Positions 12,736 through 18,072 of a DNA stretch of 50,884 nucleotides are shown one piece after another (the stretch's first letter is position 1; every line of letters begins with the position of its first letter). A model generated the notes under the pieces. That model was not told the origin of the DNA and made no database searches. It saw only the letters and a list, made by a program, of their open reading frames with translations. The position numbers and the translations under genes are program-made. The stretch is from Holophagaceae bacterium. Lineage in GTDB: Bacteria; Acidobacteriota; Holophagae; Holophagales; Holophagaceae. The stretch covers positions 1-50,884 of the forward strand of contig JAAXXS010000007.1 in NCBI GenBank assembly GCA_013334395.1, given 5' to 3'.

Positions 12736-14688
12736 ATGTTGTCCGATCCCGTTCGCTTCACCGGCCGAATCCTTTTCCTATCGGAGGATCCGGCGCGGAT
12801 CCTCCGCCAGCTCGCGGGCGAAGACCTGACGCTGGAAGCGGCAGGACCCCTCAGGGACCAGATCAGCACCGACGAGATCACGCCCGCCCACATCTGCTAC
12901 CACTACGACGAGAAGCTGGGTGACTTCCCCTACCTGGGCCTGCGCTGCGGTGGCGTGTCCCCCATCGGGGTGGGCGCCGTGCGGGCCGGCGGCTTCGCGG
13001 TCAGCGTGGCGGGCAAGCGACGGGGCAAGGGCAGCAGCCGCGAGGCCAGTCCCTACGCCGAGTGGTGCGCCGGCCTCCGCCTGGTGCTCGCCGAGAGCTT
13101 CGAGCGCATCTACCGCCAGAACTGCCAGAACCTGGGCCTCCTCACCAGCACCGACTTCGGCCTGGTGCCGCGCCTGCGCCGGGGCGAGGTCATTCCCCTC
13201 GCCGAGTTCACGGACGGACTCGACCCGGTCACCGCCGAGATCGTGCGGCGCGGCGGCCTCTTCCCCTACAACGCCGCGCGGCTGACGGGCGAGGTGGCCC
13301 CGCCCCTCCCCGAGCACGCGGTCCGCCCCATGACCTACGCGGAGAAGCTGCTGGCCCGCCACGCCATGGTGGATGCCGCTGCCGGCCAGACGGGGCTGCC
13401 CGCCGCGCGGCCCGGCGACGGCCTCTTCGTGAAGGCGGACTGGCGCTTCAGCCACGAATACGTGACCCCCATGGCCGCCCGCTTCCTGGAACAGGCCCTG
13501 GGGCCCGACGCGGTCGTCCGCGATCCCGCGTCCATCCTGGCCTTCCGCGACCACCTCACCTTCCTGCACCACAGCATCCACCCGGACCACCGGGCCATGG
13601 GCCTGCTGGCGGTGGCCGAGGGCCTGAAGCCCGCCCAGGAGGCCTTCTGCGCCCGCCATGGCATCCGCCTCCACGGCGAGCTTCCCGATGGGTCTGGCAG
13701 CGAGGGCATCTGCCACGCCCTCATGACCGAGCGCTATGCCTGCCCCGGTCAGGTGGTCGTGGGCACGGACTCGCACACCCCCCACTCGGGCGCCCTGGGC
13801 TGCCTGGCCTTCGGCATCGGCACCACAGACATCGCCTGCGCCTGGGTCACCGGCGATGTCCGCGTCACGGTGCCGCCCACCCTGCGGGTGCGCCTCAACG
13901 GCCGGCTGCGGCCCGGCGTGTCCGCCAAGGATCTGGTCCTGCACCTGCTGGCCCAGCCCCTGATCCGCGAGGGCGGCGCCCTCGGCCACGTCATCGAGTA
14001 CCAGGGCGAGGGCCTGTTCGATCTGGACACGGACGAGCGCGCCACCCTGACCAACATGGCCGCCGAGATCGGCGGCTTCACGGGCCTGGTGGCCCCGGAC
14101 GCGGAGACCTGCCGCTTCATCCGAGAGCGCCGGGGCGTGGAGCTGGTCCTGGAGCCCTGGATGCGCGGCGACGAGGGCGCCGACTACGCCCACACCCTGG
14201 ACCTCGACTGCGCCACCCTGAGCCCCATGTTGGCCCGCCCCGGCGACCCCGGCAACGGCCTGGCCCTGGCGGACCTCGCCGAGGCGGTACCCATCGACAT
14301 CGCCTACCTGGGCAGCTGCACCGGGGGCAAGCGCGAAGACCTCCGCCGGGCCTACGAGGCCATCCGCCCCGCAGCCTTGGCGGGCCGCCGCGTCCCCGAG
14401 GGTGTGCAGTTCTTCGTGCAGTGCGGCAGCGAGGACGTGCGCCGCCACGCCGAAGCAGAGGGCTGGATCAAAGCCTTTGAGGCCGTCGGCGCCGTGGTGC
14501 TCGGCAGCTCCTGCGGGGCCTGCATCAATGCCGGTCCCGGCGTGTCCAGCCGGCCGGACCAGGTCACGATCAGTGCCATCAACCGGAACTTCCCCGGCCG
14601 CAGCGGACCGGGCCAGATGTGGCTGGCCAGCCCCGCCACCGTCGCCGCCAGCGCCCTCGCCGGGCGCATCGTCGGAGCCGAGTCGTGA
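12736..14688 (+). CDS. Aconitase/isopropylmalate-dehydratase family protein with swivel domain first
   Basis: A 650-residue Fe-S hydro-lyase of the aconitase superfamily. Residues about 1-185 form a LeuD-like swivel domain (SPIGVGAVRAGG, GKGSSREASPYAEW, FERIYRQNCQNLGLL). Residues about 195-650 form the LeuC-like catalytic part (MTYAEKLLARH, FLHHSIHPDHRAMGL, VVVGTDSHTPHSGALG, YLGSCTGGK, GSSCGACINAGPG). The cluster ligands are Cys528, Cys593 and Cys596. In standard aconitases the swivel domain is at the C-terminus, so the order here is swapped. The substrate (citrate, homocitrate, methylcitrate, isopropylmalate) cannot be assigned. Its stop overlaps the next start (GTGA), implying translational coupling. 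Confidence 0.85.
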   Translation: MLSDPVRFTGRILFLSEDPARILRQLAGEDLTLEAAGPLRDQISTDEITPAHICYHYDEKLGDFPYLGLRCGGVSPIGVGAVRAGGFAVSVAGKRRGKGSSREASPYAEWCAGLRLVLAESFERIYRQNCQNLGLLTSTDFGLVPRLRRGEVIPLAEFTDGLDPVTAEIVRRGGLFPYNAARLTGEVAPPLPEHAVRPMTYAEKLLARHAMVDAAAGQTGLPAARPGDGLFVKADWRFSHEYVTPMAARFLEQALGPDAVVRDPASILAFRDHLTFLHHSIHPDHRAMGLLAVAEGLKPAQEAFCARHGIRLHGELPDGSGSEGICHALMTERYACPGQVVVGTDSHTPHSGALGCLAFGIGTTDIACAWVTGDVRVTVPPTLRVRLNGRLRPGVSAKDLVLHLLAQPLIREGGALGHVIEYQGEGLFDLDTDERATLTNMAAEIGGFTGLVAPDAETCRFIRERRGVELVLEPWMRGDEGADYAHTLDLDCATLSPMLARPGDPGNGLALADLAEAVPIDIAYLGSCTGGKREDLRRAYEAIRPAALAGRRVPEGVQFFVQCGSEDVRRHAEAEGWIKAFEAVGAVVLGSSCGACINAGPGVSSRPDQVTISAINRNFPGRSGPGQMWLASPATVAASALAGRIVGAES

Positions 14689-16625
14689 TCGATCCCATCC
14701 TGGCGGCCCGCTACCGAGCGATGGTGCTGACCGCCCTCGCCCGGCCCGGCGCCCCTGACCTCGCGGGAAGGCGGGTCCTGGTGGTGGATGCGTCAGCCCA
14801 GCGCCTAGGTCTGCTGGAAGGCGGCCGCCTGGTCTTCGAGGCCGCCATCTCCACCGCCTTGAATGGCCTGGGCTGCCAGGAGAACTCCTACCGCACGCCC
14901 ACGGGCTGGCACCGCATCCAGGCCTGCCTTGGCGCCGGGGCGGAGCCAGGCACCGTCTTCCGCGCCAAGGCGCCCACGGGCGAGGTCTGGCGCGGCGAGC
15001 CCCGCACCGAGGACCTCATCCTCACTCGGGTGCTGCCCCTGGAAGGCCTGGAGGGAGGCTGGAACCGCGGCCCCGGCCTCGACTCCTTCGAGCGCTTCAT
15101 CTACCTGCACGGCACCAACCAGGAGGGACTGCTGGGACAAGCGGTCTCCCACGGCTGCGTGCGGCTGGGCAACGCCGACGTCGTGGACCTCTTCGACCGC
15201 GTGGCGGTGGGGGATCCCGTGCTCATCGCCGACAAGCTGTCGGGTGATGGCCTGGGGCTCGGCCGACTCCACTTCGCGGGCGTGGCGGGCAGCGGCATGA
15301 GCGCCCTGGCCCAGTTCGTGGCCATGAAGGGAGGCCGCGCCAGCGGCAGCGACCGCAGCTTCGACCGCGGCCAGCGCCCCGAGGACCGCGCCCGGCTCGA
15401 AGCCCTGGGCGTGACGATCTTCCCCCAGGACGGGGCGGGCCTTGCGGGTGACTGCGCGGCCCTGGTGGTATCCACCGCCGTGGAGGAAGACGTGCCCGAT
15501 GTGGCGGCAGCCCGGCGCCTGGGCGTGCCCGTGCTGCACCGCTCCGAGCTGCTGGCGCACCTGGTGGCGCGCTACCGCACCGTGGCCGTGACCGGCACCA
15601 GCGGCAAGTCCACCACCGCCGCCATGGTCTTCGCCATCCTCCGGGACGCGGGGCGCGATCCTTCGATCATCACCGGCGGCGAGTTGGTGGAGCTGCAGCA
15701 GGAAGGCCTCTGGGGCAATGCCTGGGCCGGGCAGTCCGACCTGCTGGTCATCGAGGCCGACGAGAGCGATGGCTCCGTGGTGCGCTACCACCCCGCCCTG
15801 GGCGTGCTGCTCAACCTCCAGCGGGACCACAAGGAGATGGACGCCGTTGCGGAGATGTTCCGCACCTTCCGATCCCAGCTGCGCGAAGGCGCCCTGGTGG
15901 GCGAGGCTGACAACCTGCGGGAGTTCGCCGTTGGCGCCACGGTCTTCGGCTGCGGGCCCGAGGCCGCCTTCCGGGCCGAGGCCATTCAGGCGGGCCCCGA
16001 GGGCACCACCTTCACGGTGCGCCAGCAGACCTTCCGGTTGCCGGTCCCGGGCCGACACAACCTGGAGAACGCGCTCGCGGCCATGGCGGCCTGCGCCGCT
16101 CTCGGCGTGCCCCTGGCGGCCATGGCCGCACCCCTGGCCGGCTTCCAGGGAGTGGCCCGCCGGTTCCAGGTGCTGGGCACCGCCCGCGGCGTCACCGTAG
16201 TGGACGACTTCGGCCACAACCCCGCCAAGGTCGCGGCCTCCATCCGGGCCGCGCACCTGCGGGTGGCGGCCACGGGCGGCCGGGTGTTGGCCATCTTCCA
16301 GCCCCACGGCTTCGGCCCCCTCAAGTTCCTGCGCGCGGACTTTGTGGAGACCTTCGCCACCGAGCTGCGGCCTCAGGACCGGCTCTGGTTCCTGGATGTC
16401 TTCTACGCCGGCGGCACCGCCGCCCGGGACATCAGCAGCGCGGAGGTTATCGGAGACATCCTGCCGCGCCTCGGCACCGCCGAGCACGCCCCCTCCCGGG
16501 GCTGGCTCGTGGATCGCCTGGCCGCCGAGGCCCAACCCGGCGACCTCATCCTGGTGATGGGCGCCCGGGATCCCTCCCTCACGGAGCTATCCCGGCAGAT
16601 CCTCACGCGGCTGGCGGGTCAGTAG
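14685..16625 (+). CDS. YkuD (L,D-transpeptidase/carboxypeptidase-like) domain fused to a MurC/Mpl-type ligase
   Basis: A 646-residue two-domain protein. Residues about 30-185 are a YkuD domain with His142 in YLHGTNQEG and the catalytic motif S-H-G-C-V-R (Cys158). Residues about 195-646 are a Mur ligase of the MurC/Mpl type: GVAGSGMSALA (199-209), ATP loop TGTSGKST (303-310), EADESDGS, LNLQRDH, VDDFGHNP and IFQPHGFGPLKFL. No signal peptide is visible, so both domains should be cytoplasmic. A cytoplasmic YkuD enzyme would more likely trim recycled tetrapeptides than cross-link walls, and the Mur part could ligate the resulting peptide to UDP-MurNAc; both roles are inference. The GTG start overlaps the aconitase-like stop by 4 bases. 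Confidence 0.88.
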   Translation: MIDPILAARYRAMVLTALARPGAPDLAGRRVLVVDASAQRLGLLEGGRLVFEAAISTALNGLGCQENSYRTPTGWHRIQACLGAGAEPGTVFRAKAPTGEVWRGEPRTEDLILTRVLPLEGLEGGWNRGPGLDSFERFIYLHGTNQEGLLGQAVSHGCVRLGNADVVDLFDRVAVGDPVLIADKLSGDGLGLGRLHFAGVAGSGMSALAQFVAMKGGRASGSDRSFDRGQRPEDRARLEALGVTIFPQDGAGLAGDCAALVVSTAVEEDVPDVAAARRLGVPVLHRSELLAHLVARYRTVAVTGTSGKSTTAAMVFAILRDAGRDPSIITGGELVELQQEGLWGNAWAGQSDLLVIEADESDGSVVRYHPALGVLLNLQRDHKEMDAVAEMFRTFRSQLREGALVGEADNLREFAVGATVFGCGPEAAFRAEAIQAGPEGTTFTVRQQTFRLPVPGRHNLENALAAMAACAALGVPLAAMAAPLAGFQGVARRFQVLGTARGVTVVDDFGHNPAKVAASIRAAHLRVAATGGRVLAIFQPHGFGPLKFLRADFVETFATELRPQDRLWFLDVFYAGGTAARDISSAEVIGDILPRLGTAEHAPSRGWLVDRLAAEAQPGDLILVMGARDPSLTELSRQILTRLAGQ

Positions 16626-17629
16626 ATGTTCCCGTTGTCCTGGGTGGACTCCAGCACCCCGGCGACAGCGGAGACCGTGTAGCTGTCCCCCCCTACGCCC
16701 GTCCATGCGTCCAGGTTGAAGGTGTCGCCGGGGCCAATCCGGTAGACCGCGATGTTGCGGTAGGTCAGCGGTTTCTTGCTGCTGCAGACCTGGGGGGCCC
16801 CCGGCGCTTGCAGGAAGTAGACTAGGCCGCTCCCCACGACCGTGCCCTTACCGGTCTCGTCGATGAGCAGCGCCGTCTGCTCGTCGATGGAGACCCCGCG
16901 CGGCGGGTTGAGCGTGGACCAGCCAAGGAGGTAGAGGCGGCCCAGGAAGGCAAGGTCACGGCCCATCCGGTCGCGCGTGACGAAGTGGGGATCACTGATC
17001 ATGCCGCCCAGGTGCGGAGCCGTGACGAAGTTCCGGTCGAAGGACATGTAGCGGTTGAACGGGTCCGCGAGGGCCTGGCTGGAGGTCACCCCCTGGCTGG
17101 CCTGCGCCGCATAGATGAACTGCGTCAGCACGTTCATGCCGGCACTGGTGCCGCCGATCGGGACGCCCTTGTTGATCTGCTCCTGGAGGGCGCCCTGGAC
17201 GGCGGTCCCCTTCCAGTAGTTGAGGTAGTTGGACTGGTCGCCGCCGGCGATCCAGATCGCTTCCGCGTTGCGAATGATGGTCGCCACGCGGGCATCGTTG
17301 GCGGCGGTAATCGTCGGGATGATGAGCGTGGCAACGGAGTTCACGCCCGGACAGAGGCCCTTGATATACGGGTTGTAGGCATCGGTCCCGGTCGCCCGGA
17401 TCACCAGGAAATCGCCATTGACGCCCCGGTTGGACATCCAGACGAAGGCCGCGTCCACATCGGTTCCGCCTCCCATCAGGACGGTCCCGCCCTGGAGTCC
17501 CGTCCGGGTGACATCCACCGCAGAGCCGACCCGGAAGTAGGAGTAGGGCAGCTTGGCGCCCGCCGAGGCGGGACCCGCCGCACCGATCAGGAGCCACAGC
17601 CAGCACAAAAACGCAGCGAATCGCCTCAC
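16619..17629 (-). CDS. Secreted cyanophycinase-like peptidase (family S51)
   Basis: A 336-residue exported serine peptidase of the cyanophycinase/S51 type, which in characterised relatives hydrolyses beta-Asp-Arg peptides. It has a signal peptide (MRRFAAFLCWLWLLIGAAGPASA). It then shows the S51 core: LMGGGTDVDAAF, IWIAGGDQSNYL (residues 125-136), the nucleophile motif G-G-T-S-A-G-M with Ser162, and GVSIDEQTALLI. The GTG at 17629 is chosen because AAGGAGGTG precedes it by 6 bases, and an upstream ATG lacks a signal-like start. Its stop overlaps the convergent Mur-fusion stop by 7 bases. Export means it acts on an extracellular or periplasmic peptide; cyanophycin itself is only one option. Confidence 0.87.
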   Translation of the reverse strand: MRRFAAFLCWLWLLIGAAGPASAGAKLPYSYFRVGSAVDVTRTGLQGGTVLMGGGTDVDAAFVWMSNRGVNGDFLVIRATGTDAYNPYIKGLCPGVNSVATLIIPTITAANDARVATIIRNAEAIWIAGGDQSNYLNYWKGTAVQGALQEQINKGVPIGGTSAGMNVLTQFIYAAQASQGVTSSQALADPFNRYMSFDRNFVTAPHLGGMISDPHFVTRDRMGRDLAFLGRLYLLGWSTLNPPRGVSIDEQTALLIDETGKGTVVGSGLVYFLQAPGAPQVCSSKKPLTYRNIAVYRIGPGDTFNLDAWTGVGGDSYTVSAVAGVLESTQDNGNIY

Positions 17630-18072
17630 GACACACCTCCTTGTTGAGCAGGACACAGCGAGCGGCGGGACAAATGTGTATTTATCTATATTTGCTACTC
17701 GTTTTATCTAATTTATCTAAGACAACCCCCCTGTCAATACGTCAGGGACAATCCCCAGGCTTGTCTCCCTCCAGACTCGGGTTCCAGCTCAAGAAGAGCC
17801 CCCCCTCCACAGCGAAAGCAGCTGATCCCGGCCACGCAGCCTTGGCGCAGACTCTGAAGGCGCCCTTCGCAGGCTGTTGATTTTTCGGAGTCATCCTTTC
17901 TTGGAATCTTGTTTTCCTCAGTGCTGAGAGTACATTGCTGATCGGTCTTCCAAAGACGATGTGGTGGTGTGTGCTCTGCACCGAATGGGGGAGTGTTCCT
18001 TCCGTTCTGTTCACCGTATTCCCCAAGGTATGGCCACCCAGGCCTGCCCGACTTGCCTCCAGGAGGTATCCC
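17630..18072. other. 443-bp divergent intergenic region, AT-rich near the cyanophycinase gene
   Basis: Bases 17670-17725 are conspicuously AT-rich (TTTATCTATATTTG, TTTTATCTAATTTATCT) compared with the rest of the window and probably contain the promoter of the minus-strand cyanophycinase-like gene. The middle part shows no credible coding frame. A plus-strand promoter candidate is listed separately at 17909. Confidence 0.4.
17909..17936 (+). promoter_or_regulatory. Possible promoter of the M4 peptidase gene with a palindrome in the spacer
   Basis: TTGTTT (17909-17914), a 16-bp spacer and TACATT (17931-17936). The spacer holds the perfect inverted repeat CTCAG-TG-CTGAG (17917-17928), a position where a repressor would block RNA polymerase. 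The leader to the start codon would be about 130 bases. Confidence 0.4.

Follow-up and report, generated by a model that had tools for sequence, protein, structure and literature searches.

A single protein encoded in the stretch of Holophagaceae bacterium DNA analysed here (50,884 nucleotides, contig JAAXXS010000007.1 of assembly GCA_013334395.1, positions 1 to 50,884 of the forward strand; hereafter the window) joins a YkuD domain to a complete Mur ligase. We propose that this fusion is a cytoplasmic bifunctional enzyme of peptidoglycan recycling, which would trim tetrapeptide to tripeptide in the manner of ElsL and then, by an Mpl-like ligation, attach the tripeptide to UDP-N-acetylmuramic acid (UDP-MurNAc). 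Judging from comparisons of sequence, we put the probability of this reading at roughly three in four. In the scheme we envisage, the YkuD half would trim recovered tetrapeptide, the ligase half would join the resulting tripeptide to UDP-MurNAc with the expenditure of adenosine triphosphate (ATP), bypassing MurC, MurD and MurE, and the coupling of the two steps would prevent tetrapeptide, which cannot be used, from entering the precursor pool. One might guess, further, that the peptide is channelled between the two active sites. An initial annotation of this DNA had suggested the same sequence of trimming and ligation, and these predicted activities are supported by the likeness of the YkuD half to ElsL, by changes in the amino-acid pocket of the ligase, by the presence of a separate MurC, and by the coupling of related ligases to peptidases of family S66.

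The fusion is intact and conserved

The gene runs on the forward strand from a GTG at position 14685 to a TAG ending at 16625, as a single unbroken frame of 646 residues in which a YkuD domain precedes a three-domain Mur ligase. All four Pfam domains score well over their curated cut-offs (for YkuD, PF03734, the score is 76.9 bits and the cut-off 23.4). The YkuD domain, of the ElsL-like cytoplasmic L,D-carboxypeptidase type, spans residues 30–181 (14772..15227; Pfam E value (E) 3e-21) and contains His142 of the active site (15108..15110) and the SHGCVR motif (residues 155–160, 15147..15164), with Ser155, the predicted catalytic Cys158, and Arg160. A short variable linker (residues 184–193, 15234..15263) leads into the N-terminal ligase domain, which would bind UDP-MurNAc (residues 195–298, 15267..15578; Mur_ligase, E 6e-18). 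This is followed by the middle, ATP-binding domain (residues 302–470, 15588..16094; Mur_ligase_M, E 2e-16) with its P-loop TGTSGKST (residues 303–310, 15591-15614), and by the C-terminal domain, where the incoming amino acid or peptide would be held (residues 492–628, 16158..16568; Mur_ligase_C, E 2e-16). The in-frame fusion in one polypeptide described in the initial annotation is thus upheld, and the positions it gave for His142, for Cys158 within SHGCVR and for the ATP loop are all correct. An AlphaFold model built from 22 sequences (mean predicted local distance difference test score 81.6, predicted template modelling score 0.79) is confident over the greater part of each domain, the loops at residues 61–69, 122–137 and 576–579 being of low confidence.

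A genome scan detected the full-length fusion in about 50 other species-level genomes, belonging to Holophagaceae and to the Methyloceanibacter/Hyphomicrobiaceae group and including single-contig genomes. The ratio of non-synonymous to synonymous substitution rates (dN/dS) is 0.11–0.18 in the YkuD part and the ligase part alike, while the ten-residue linker varies, which indicates that both halves are under purifying selection. Given this recurrence and this constraint, we reject the possibility, raised in the initial annotation, that a frameshift or assembly artefact has joined two genes. Broken fusions were seen at two loci only (L046 and L049), both in draft genomes. The closest loci to the window fusion come from uncultured Holophagaceae (90–94% identity), and the source organism seems to be related to Geothrix. 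Among 396 sampled genomes of the source phylum, the fusion is present in all 26 members of the source genus, in one case as two pieces of one frame, and in most other Holophagaceae genera, and no fusion was found outside Holophagaceae.

The fused ligases form one clade with a support of 100 in the Shimodaira–Hasegawa-like approximate likelihood ratio test (SH-aLRT), and since the alphaproteobacterial Methyloceanibacter proteins fall inside this clade, the fusion gene appears to have been transferred between phyla as a unit. A search of plasmids returned distant MurC matches only. We found no description of a YkuD–Mur ligase fusion in the open-licence literature, in agreement with the initial annotation, whose author knew of no described protein of such architecture; its occurrence in some 50 genomes means, however, that the architecture is not peculiar to the window protein.

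The YkuD half resembles cytoplasmic ElsL

ElsL (also LdtJ) of Acinetobacter baumannii is a cytoplasmic YkuD L,D-carboxypeptidase active on disaccharide-tetrapeptide (PMC8649774). Residues 33–181 of the fusion match the NCBIfam model of ElsL, NF040925, with 120 bits (E 8e-35), against 28 bits for models of exported L,D-transpeptidases, and the resemblance to ElsL that had been suspected in the initial annotation is therefore well founded. Both are leaderless YkuD proteins with the same catalytic motif, and at least 20 residues are the same in all 45 fusion and ElsL sequences, among them His142 itself and positions near it and near Cys158; trimming of tetrapeptide to tripeptide is the activity to be expected from the fusion as well. 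The difference is that ElsL, at about 160 residues, stands alone, whereas the YkuD domain studied here has a Mur ligase attached to it. It is important to note that 120 bits lies below the NF040925 cut-off of 270 bits, a value that no protein from 249 Pseudomonadota genomes reached; the ElsL-like proteins of these genomes lie at 110–210 bits. The same model gave no match at E 1e-20 in 14 control genomes, including that of Escherichia coli with its exported L,D-transpeptidases. The published search for ElsL orthologues took only proteins of 105–200 residues (PMC8649774), so that the fusion would have escaped it because of its length.

By hydropathy we see no signal peptide: over the first 60 positions, the most hydrophobic stretch of 15 residues has a score of 1.33, compared with 2.01 for the signal of E. 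coli LdtB, and the sole N-terminal element in the AlphaFold model is a predicted helix at residues 4–18. This agrees with the initial annotation, which had noted the missing leader and counted export of the YkuD domain as evidence to the contrary. The fusion carries the only YkuD domain encoded in its genome, and the source organism thus seems, within a completeness of 96%, to be without a periplasmic L,D-transpeptidase of the YkuD family.

The ligase half belongs to neither MurC nor Mpl

Placing the ligase in a tree of MurC and Mpl, as the initial annotation had proposed, separates 102 sequences into three groups: Mpl (SH-aLRT 100), MurC (88), and one more clade, supported at 100, whose branch measures 1.14 changes per column. 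This third clade consists of 16 fused ligases, that of the window included, and 44 stand-alone ligases from alpha- and deltaproteobacteria. The window ligase is 61–92% identical to those of other fusions, 33–44% to the stand-alone members, 30–35% to MurC and 25–30% to Mpl.

Five residues of the pocket for the incoming amino acid that are invariant in all 21 MurC sequences have been replaced across the third clade. In E. coli numbering, with the window residue in brackets, Tyr352 becomes Phe in 59 of the 60 members (Phe509), His355 becomes Asn in all 60 (Asn512), Glu358 becomes Lys in all 60 (Lys515), Arg383 becomes Gly in 57 (Gly542) and Arg386 becomes Pro in 56 (Pro545). The first three lie in the clade signature DDFGHNPAK (residues 507–515, 16203..16229) and the last two in FQPHGFGP (residues 538–545, 16296..16319). 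The L-alanine (L-Ala) pocket of Haemophilus influenzae MurC is formed by Tyr346, His348, His376, Arg377 and Arg380 (PMC3060825), where the two arginines correspond to E. coli Arg383 and Arg386; the window ligase retains both histidines of this pocket, and has Phe for the tyrosine, Gly for Arg377 and Pro for Arg380. The motif (S/T)AFFDKRSK, found in 17 of 21 Mpl sequences, is present in none of the 60 third-clade members. Our conclusion from the position in the tree, the altered pocket and the missing Mpl motif is that the window ligase is by descent neither MurC nor Mpl, and that its pocket probably serves a substrate different from L-Ala. The description 'MurC/Mpl-type ligase' in the initial annotation is accurate in that the Mur ligase is complete, but membership of the Mpl family does not hold, given the separate clade, the absent motif and the higher score on the MurC model.

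Comparison with the known enzymes is instructive on this point. Mpl, as described from E. coli and Psychrobacter arcticus (PMC3060825), is likewise a UDP-MurNAc ligase of three domains that takes part in recycling and coexists with a separate MurC; it has Phe in place of the tyrosine, and is without both L-Ala arginines, with other residues in their place. It differs in its clade, in its characteristic motif, and in having Ser and Met where the window clade has Gly and Pro, and His and Ala where the window clade has Asn and Lys. MurC provides the closest fold and the closest model, and its UDP-MurNAc and ATP motifs are kept in the window ligase, but the latter is only 33% identical to the MurC of its own genome, has the L-Ala pocket replaced, and falls in another clade. 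As to the fusion itself, the MurC–Ddl and MurE–MurF proteins (NF011171, NF008896) and the MurB–MurC protein of Verrucomicrobium spinosum (PMC4803751) also unite consecutive peptidoglycan steps in one polypeptide; these, however, join biosynthetic steps, whereas the window fusion would join a recycling hydrolase to a ligase.

An ElsL-type carboxypeptidase and an Mpl-like ligation are kinds of machinery already known. In the open-licence literature we found no description of a third-clade ligase as a peptide ligase, and this apparently undescribed, Mpl-analogous clade is the more novel part of the finding.

Ligases of this clade are repeatedly coupled to L,D-carboxypeptidases

Peptidase S66, to which LdcA belongs, is a family of hydrolases. 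An S66 gene adjoins the ligase gene in 30 of the 44 stand-alone members of the third clade, mostly within 150 bases, lying divergently upstream in 18 and downstream on the same strand in 12. One more member is a single ligase–S66 protein, from a rumen alphaproteobacterium (L061:3452-5752), with the S66 domain at the C-terminus. No S66 gene was seen beside MurC at any of 20 MurC loci, 17 of which offered a flank of only 1.5 kilobases. The S66 proteins of the two gene orders score clearly differently on one profile (about 340–480 against 120–190 bits), and the association with the ligase has therefore probably arisen more than once. The L061 protein is, in its domain order, a second and mirror-image fusion relative to that of the window. 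At another locus (L054:2741-5601) a ligase of the clade lacks an S66 neighbour; the next gene encodes a different enzyme of cell-wall peptides, an NlpC/P60 protein of the dipeptidyl-peptidase kind that carries SH3 domains.

A further Holophagaceae locus (L057) encodes a ligase that is 67% identical to that of the window and has no YkuD domain. Just downstream is an S66 gene, whose product matches the muramoyltetrapeptide carboxypeptidase model with E 1e-58; here, S66 stands in where YkuD is missing. The alphaproteobacterial loci (L058, L061, L062, L064, L160 and others) likewise couple a ligase of the same clade to a cytoplasmic-type L,D-carboxypeptidase, LdcA; the partner there is a serine enzyme, S66, encoded beside the ligase or attached to its C-terminus (L061), while that of the window is a cysteine enzyme, YkuD. 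The fusion is thus one case in a larger group of ligases linked to L,D-carboxypeptidases, with two unrelated families alternating as the partner. That two unrelated families with the same reaction occur in four arrangements points to the product of that reaction, tripeptide, as the substrate of the ligase. We regard this coupling as the strongest new evidence for the proposed function.

Other recycling genes in the source genome

The initial annotation had asked whether separate murC and ldcA genes exist. A canonical MurC is encoded elsewhere in the source genome (555 bits against a cut-off of 335); apart from this and the fusion, the genome has no further MurC- or Mpl-like protein, and no Mpl of the E. 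coli type. More broadly, 16 of 20 tested genomes with a third-clade ligase have a full-length MurC scoring more than 480 bits, the other four being incomplete or fragmented. Since a full-scoring MurC is present, we rejected the idea that the fusion replaces MurC; the combination that the initial annotation thought damaging, a missing murC and a ligase of clear MurC specificity, is not what we find, as MurC is there and the L-Ala residues are replaced in the fusion. The only LdcA-family (S66) protein of the genome (L071) begins RRAFLRNTLLAALSTQLAPAVLGAG, which reads as a twin-arginine translocation (Tat) leader, so that the protein looks exported and the fusion is likely to be the cytoplasmic L,D-carboxypeptidase of this organism.

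The genome also encodes AmpG (436 bits) and a NagZ-type GH3 protein. A compact cluster for the recycling of amino sugars and peptidoglycan, on contig C160 (L255, 49-8799), holds NagB-II, MurQ, a second AmpG-like transporter, NagX-like and GHL10 proteins, a NagK-like kinase, a glutamate-racemase-like protein, and an AmpD-type amidase that carries a peptidoglycan-binding domain, the arrangement reported for AmiR of Caulobacter (PMC13046382). Set among these genes, the fusion would fill the one gap, that of peptide reuse.

Weighing alternative readings

Several observations weigh against the function that we propose. Carboxypeptidase genes are missing from the examined flank of 13 of the 44 stand-alone members, some of which lie at contig ends. 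In a Foldseek comparison the ligase fold comes out nearest to MurC, with a template modelling score (normalised by target) of up to 0.86, and Mpl follows at 0.66; the MurC model likewise gives the window ligase more bits (306) than the Mpl model does (122). The S66 protein L071 could be cytoplasmic if its Tat-like leader has been misjudged. Lastly, of the five Methyloceanibacter fusions, four (L044, L045, L047 and L048) read SCGC or SQGC in place of SHGC, and because the histidine is there Cys or Gln, YkuD activity is less sure in those proteins, which do retain the Ser, Gly, Cys and Arg of the motif.

The order of the two reactions might be the reverse of that which we propose, with the ligase joining the peptide first and YkuD then proof-reading the product of its own protein, UDP-MurNAc-tetrapeptide to UDP-MurNAc-tripeptide. 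The same sequence evidence fits such an order, Mpl accepts tetra- and pentapeptide (PMC3060825), and untrimmed tetrapeptide precursors are harmful (PMC8649774). However, ElsL can work on disaccharide-tetrapeptide (PMC8649774), and LdcA and ElsL, where they are separate enzymes, come ahead of Mpl. We consider trimming after ligation unlikely, although the evidence gathered here fits either order.

We are more sceptical still of the reading in which the ligase duplicates MurC as an L-Ala-adding isozyme and the fused YkuD domain is of only regulatory or minor importance. The proximity to MurC is real: the best model match of the window ligase is TIGR01082 (murC; 306–307 bits, E 6e-91, with 282–312 bits for other fusions), the closest structures are those of MurC, and the motifs for ATP and UDP-MurNAc are also of the MurC kind, while the Mpl model TIGR01081 gives 122 bits, well short of its cut-off of 388.7. 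Yet the TIGR01082 score too is below the cut-off of 335, the genome has a separate MurC that scores in full, and the residues contacting L-Ala are lost throughout the clade. Nor would coupling to two unrelated carboxypeptidase families be expected of a MurC, and it is unseen at MurC loci.

That YkuD would instead exchange or transfer amino acids, as an L,D-transpeptidase or in D-amino-acid exchange, so that the fusion edits stem peptides in the cytoplasm, is very improbable: YkuD enzymes are mostly transpeptidases and have the catalytic Cys and His in common, but this domain is without a signal peptide and far closer to the ElsL carboxypeptidase than to exported transpeptidase models, and S66, its counterpart elsewhere in the clade, is a hydrolase.

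Neighbouring genes

The GTG start of the fusion gene overlaps by four bases the stop codon of the gene upstream (12736-14688, forward strand), and this overlap suggests that the two may be co-translated. The upstream gene encodes a 650-residue protein resembling aconitase and 3-isopropylmalate dehydratase, with 82–95% identity across Geothrix; a LeuD-like small-subunit region (residues 41–138) stands ahead of the large-subunit region (199–647), an inverted single-chain order. We rejected a conserved operon with this gene, as the neighbour is kept only within Geothrix. At three loci (L037, L041 and L049) the fusion gene lies directly 3' of murD, which we count in favour of the proposed function. 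Convergent with the fusion gene in the window is a gene (16619-17656, reverse strand) for a secreted-looking, cyanophycinase-like protein (TIGR02069, below cut-off), in which we see no role. A link to cyanophycin was rejected, since the Mur-ligase-like gene upstream at those three loci is murD, and a cyanophycinase-like gene was not seen conserved beside the fusion.

Implications for peptide reuse

Caulobacter (PMC13046382, PMC11980594) and Agrobacterium (PMC9790009) are reported to have neither LdcA nor Mpl, and it has been proposed that their recovered peptides are degraded to amino acids. Mpl of the E. coli type was found in none of the 289 Alphaproteobacteria genomes that we sampled (the class of Porphyrobacter), compared with 131 of 200 genomes sampled over the whole phylum. 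About 35 of the same 289 genomes have a third-clade ligase, and in most cases an L,D-carboxypeptidase is encoded next to it.

We lean towards the view that the third clade is a second family of murein peptide ligases, which would derive from MurC and stand in for Mpl without sharing its origin. Such a ligase would have been coupled repeatedly to whichever L,D-carboxypeptidase was available (S66 divergent, downstream or fused at the C-terminus; ElsL-type YkuD fused at the N-terminus), supplying peptide reuse in lineages thought to be without it, with channelling in the fusion ensuring that tetrapeptide is never ligated. If this view is correct, trimming and ligating activities are encoded as neighbours, in one pair as a single polypeptide, and could be tested in one tube. 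It would explain how cells escape the damaging tetrapeptide precursors that are observed in the absence of ElsL or LdcA, and, if the third-clade ligase is indeed a peptide ligase, direct peptide reuse would be commoner than has been thought.

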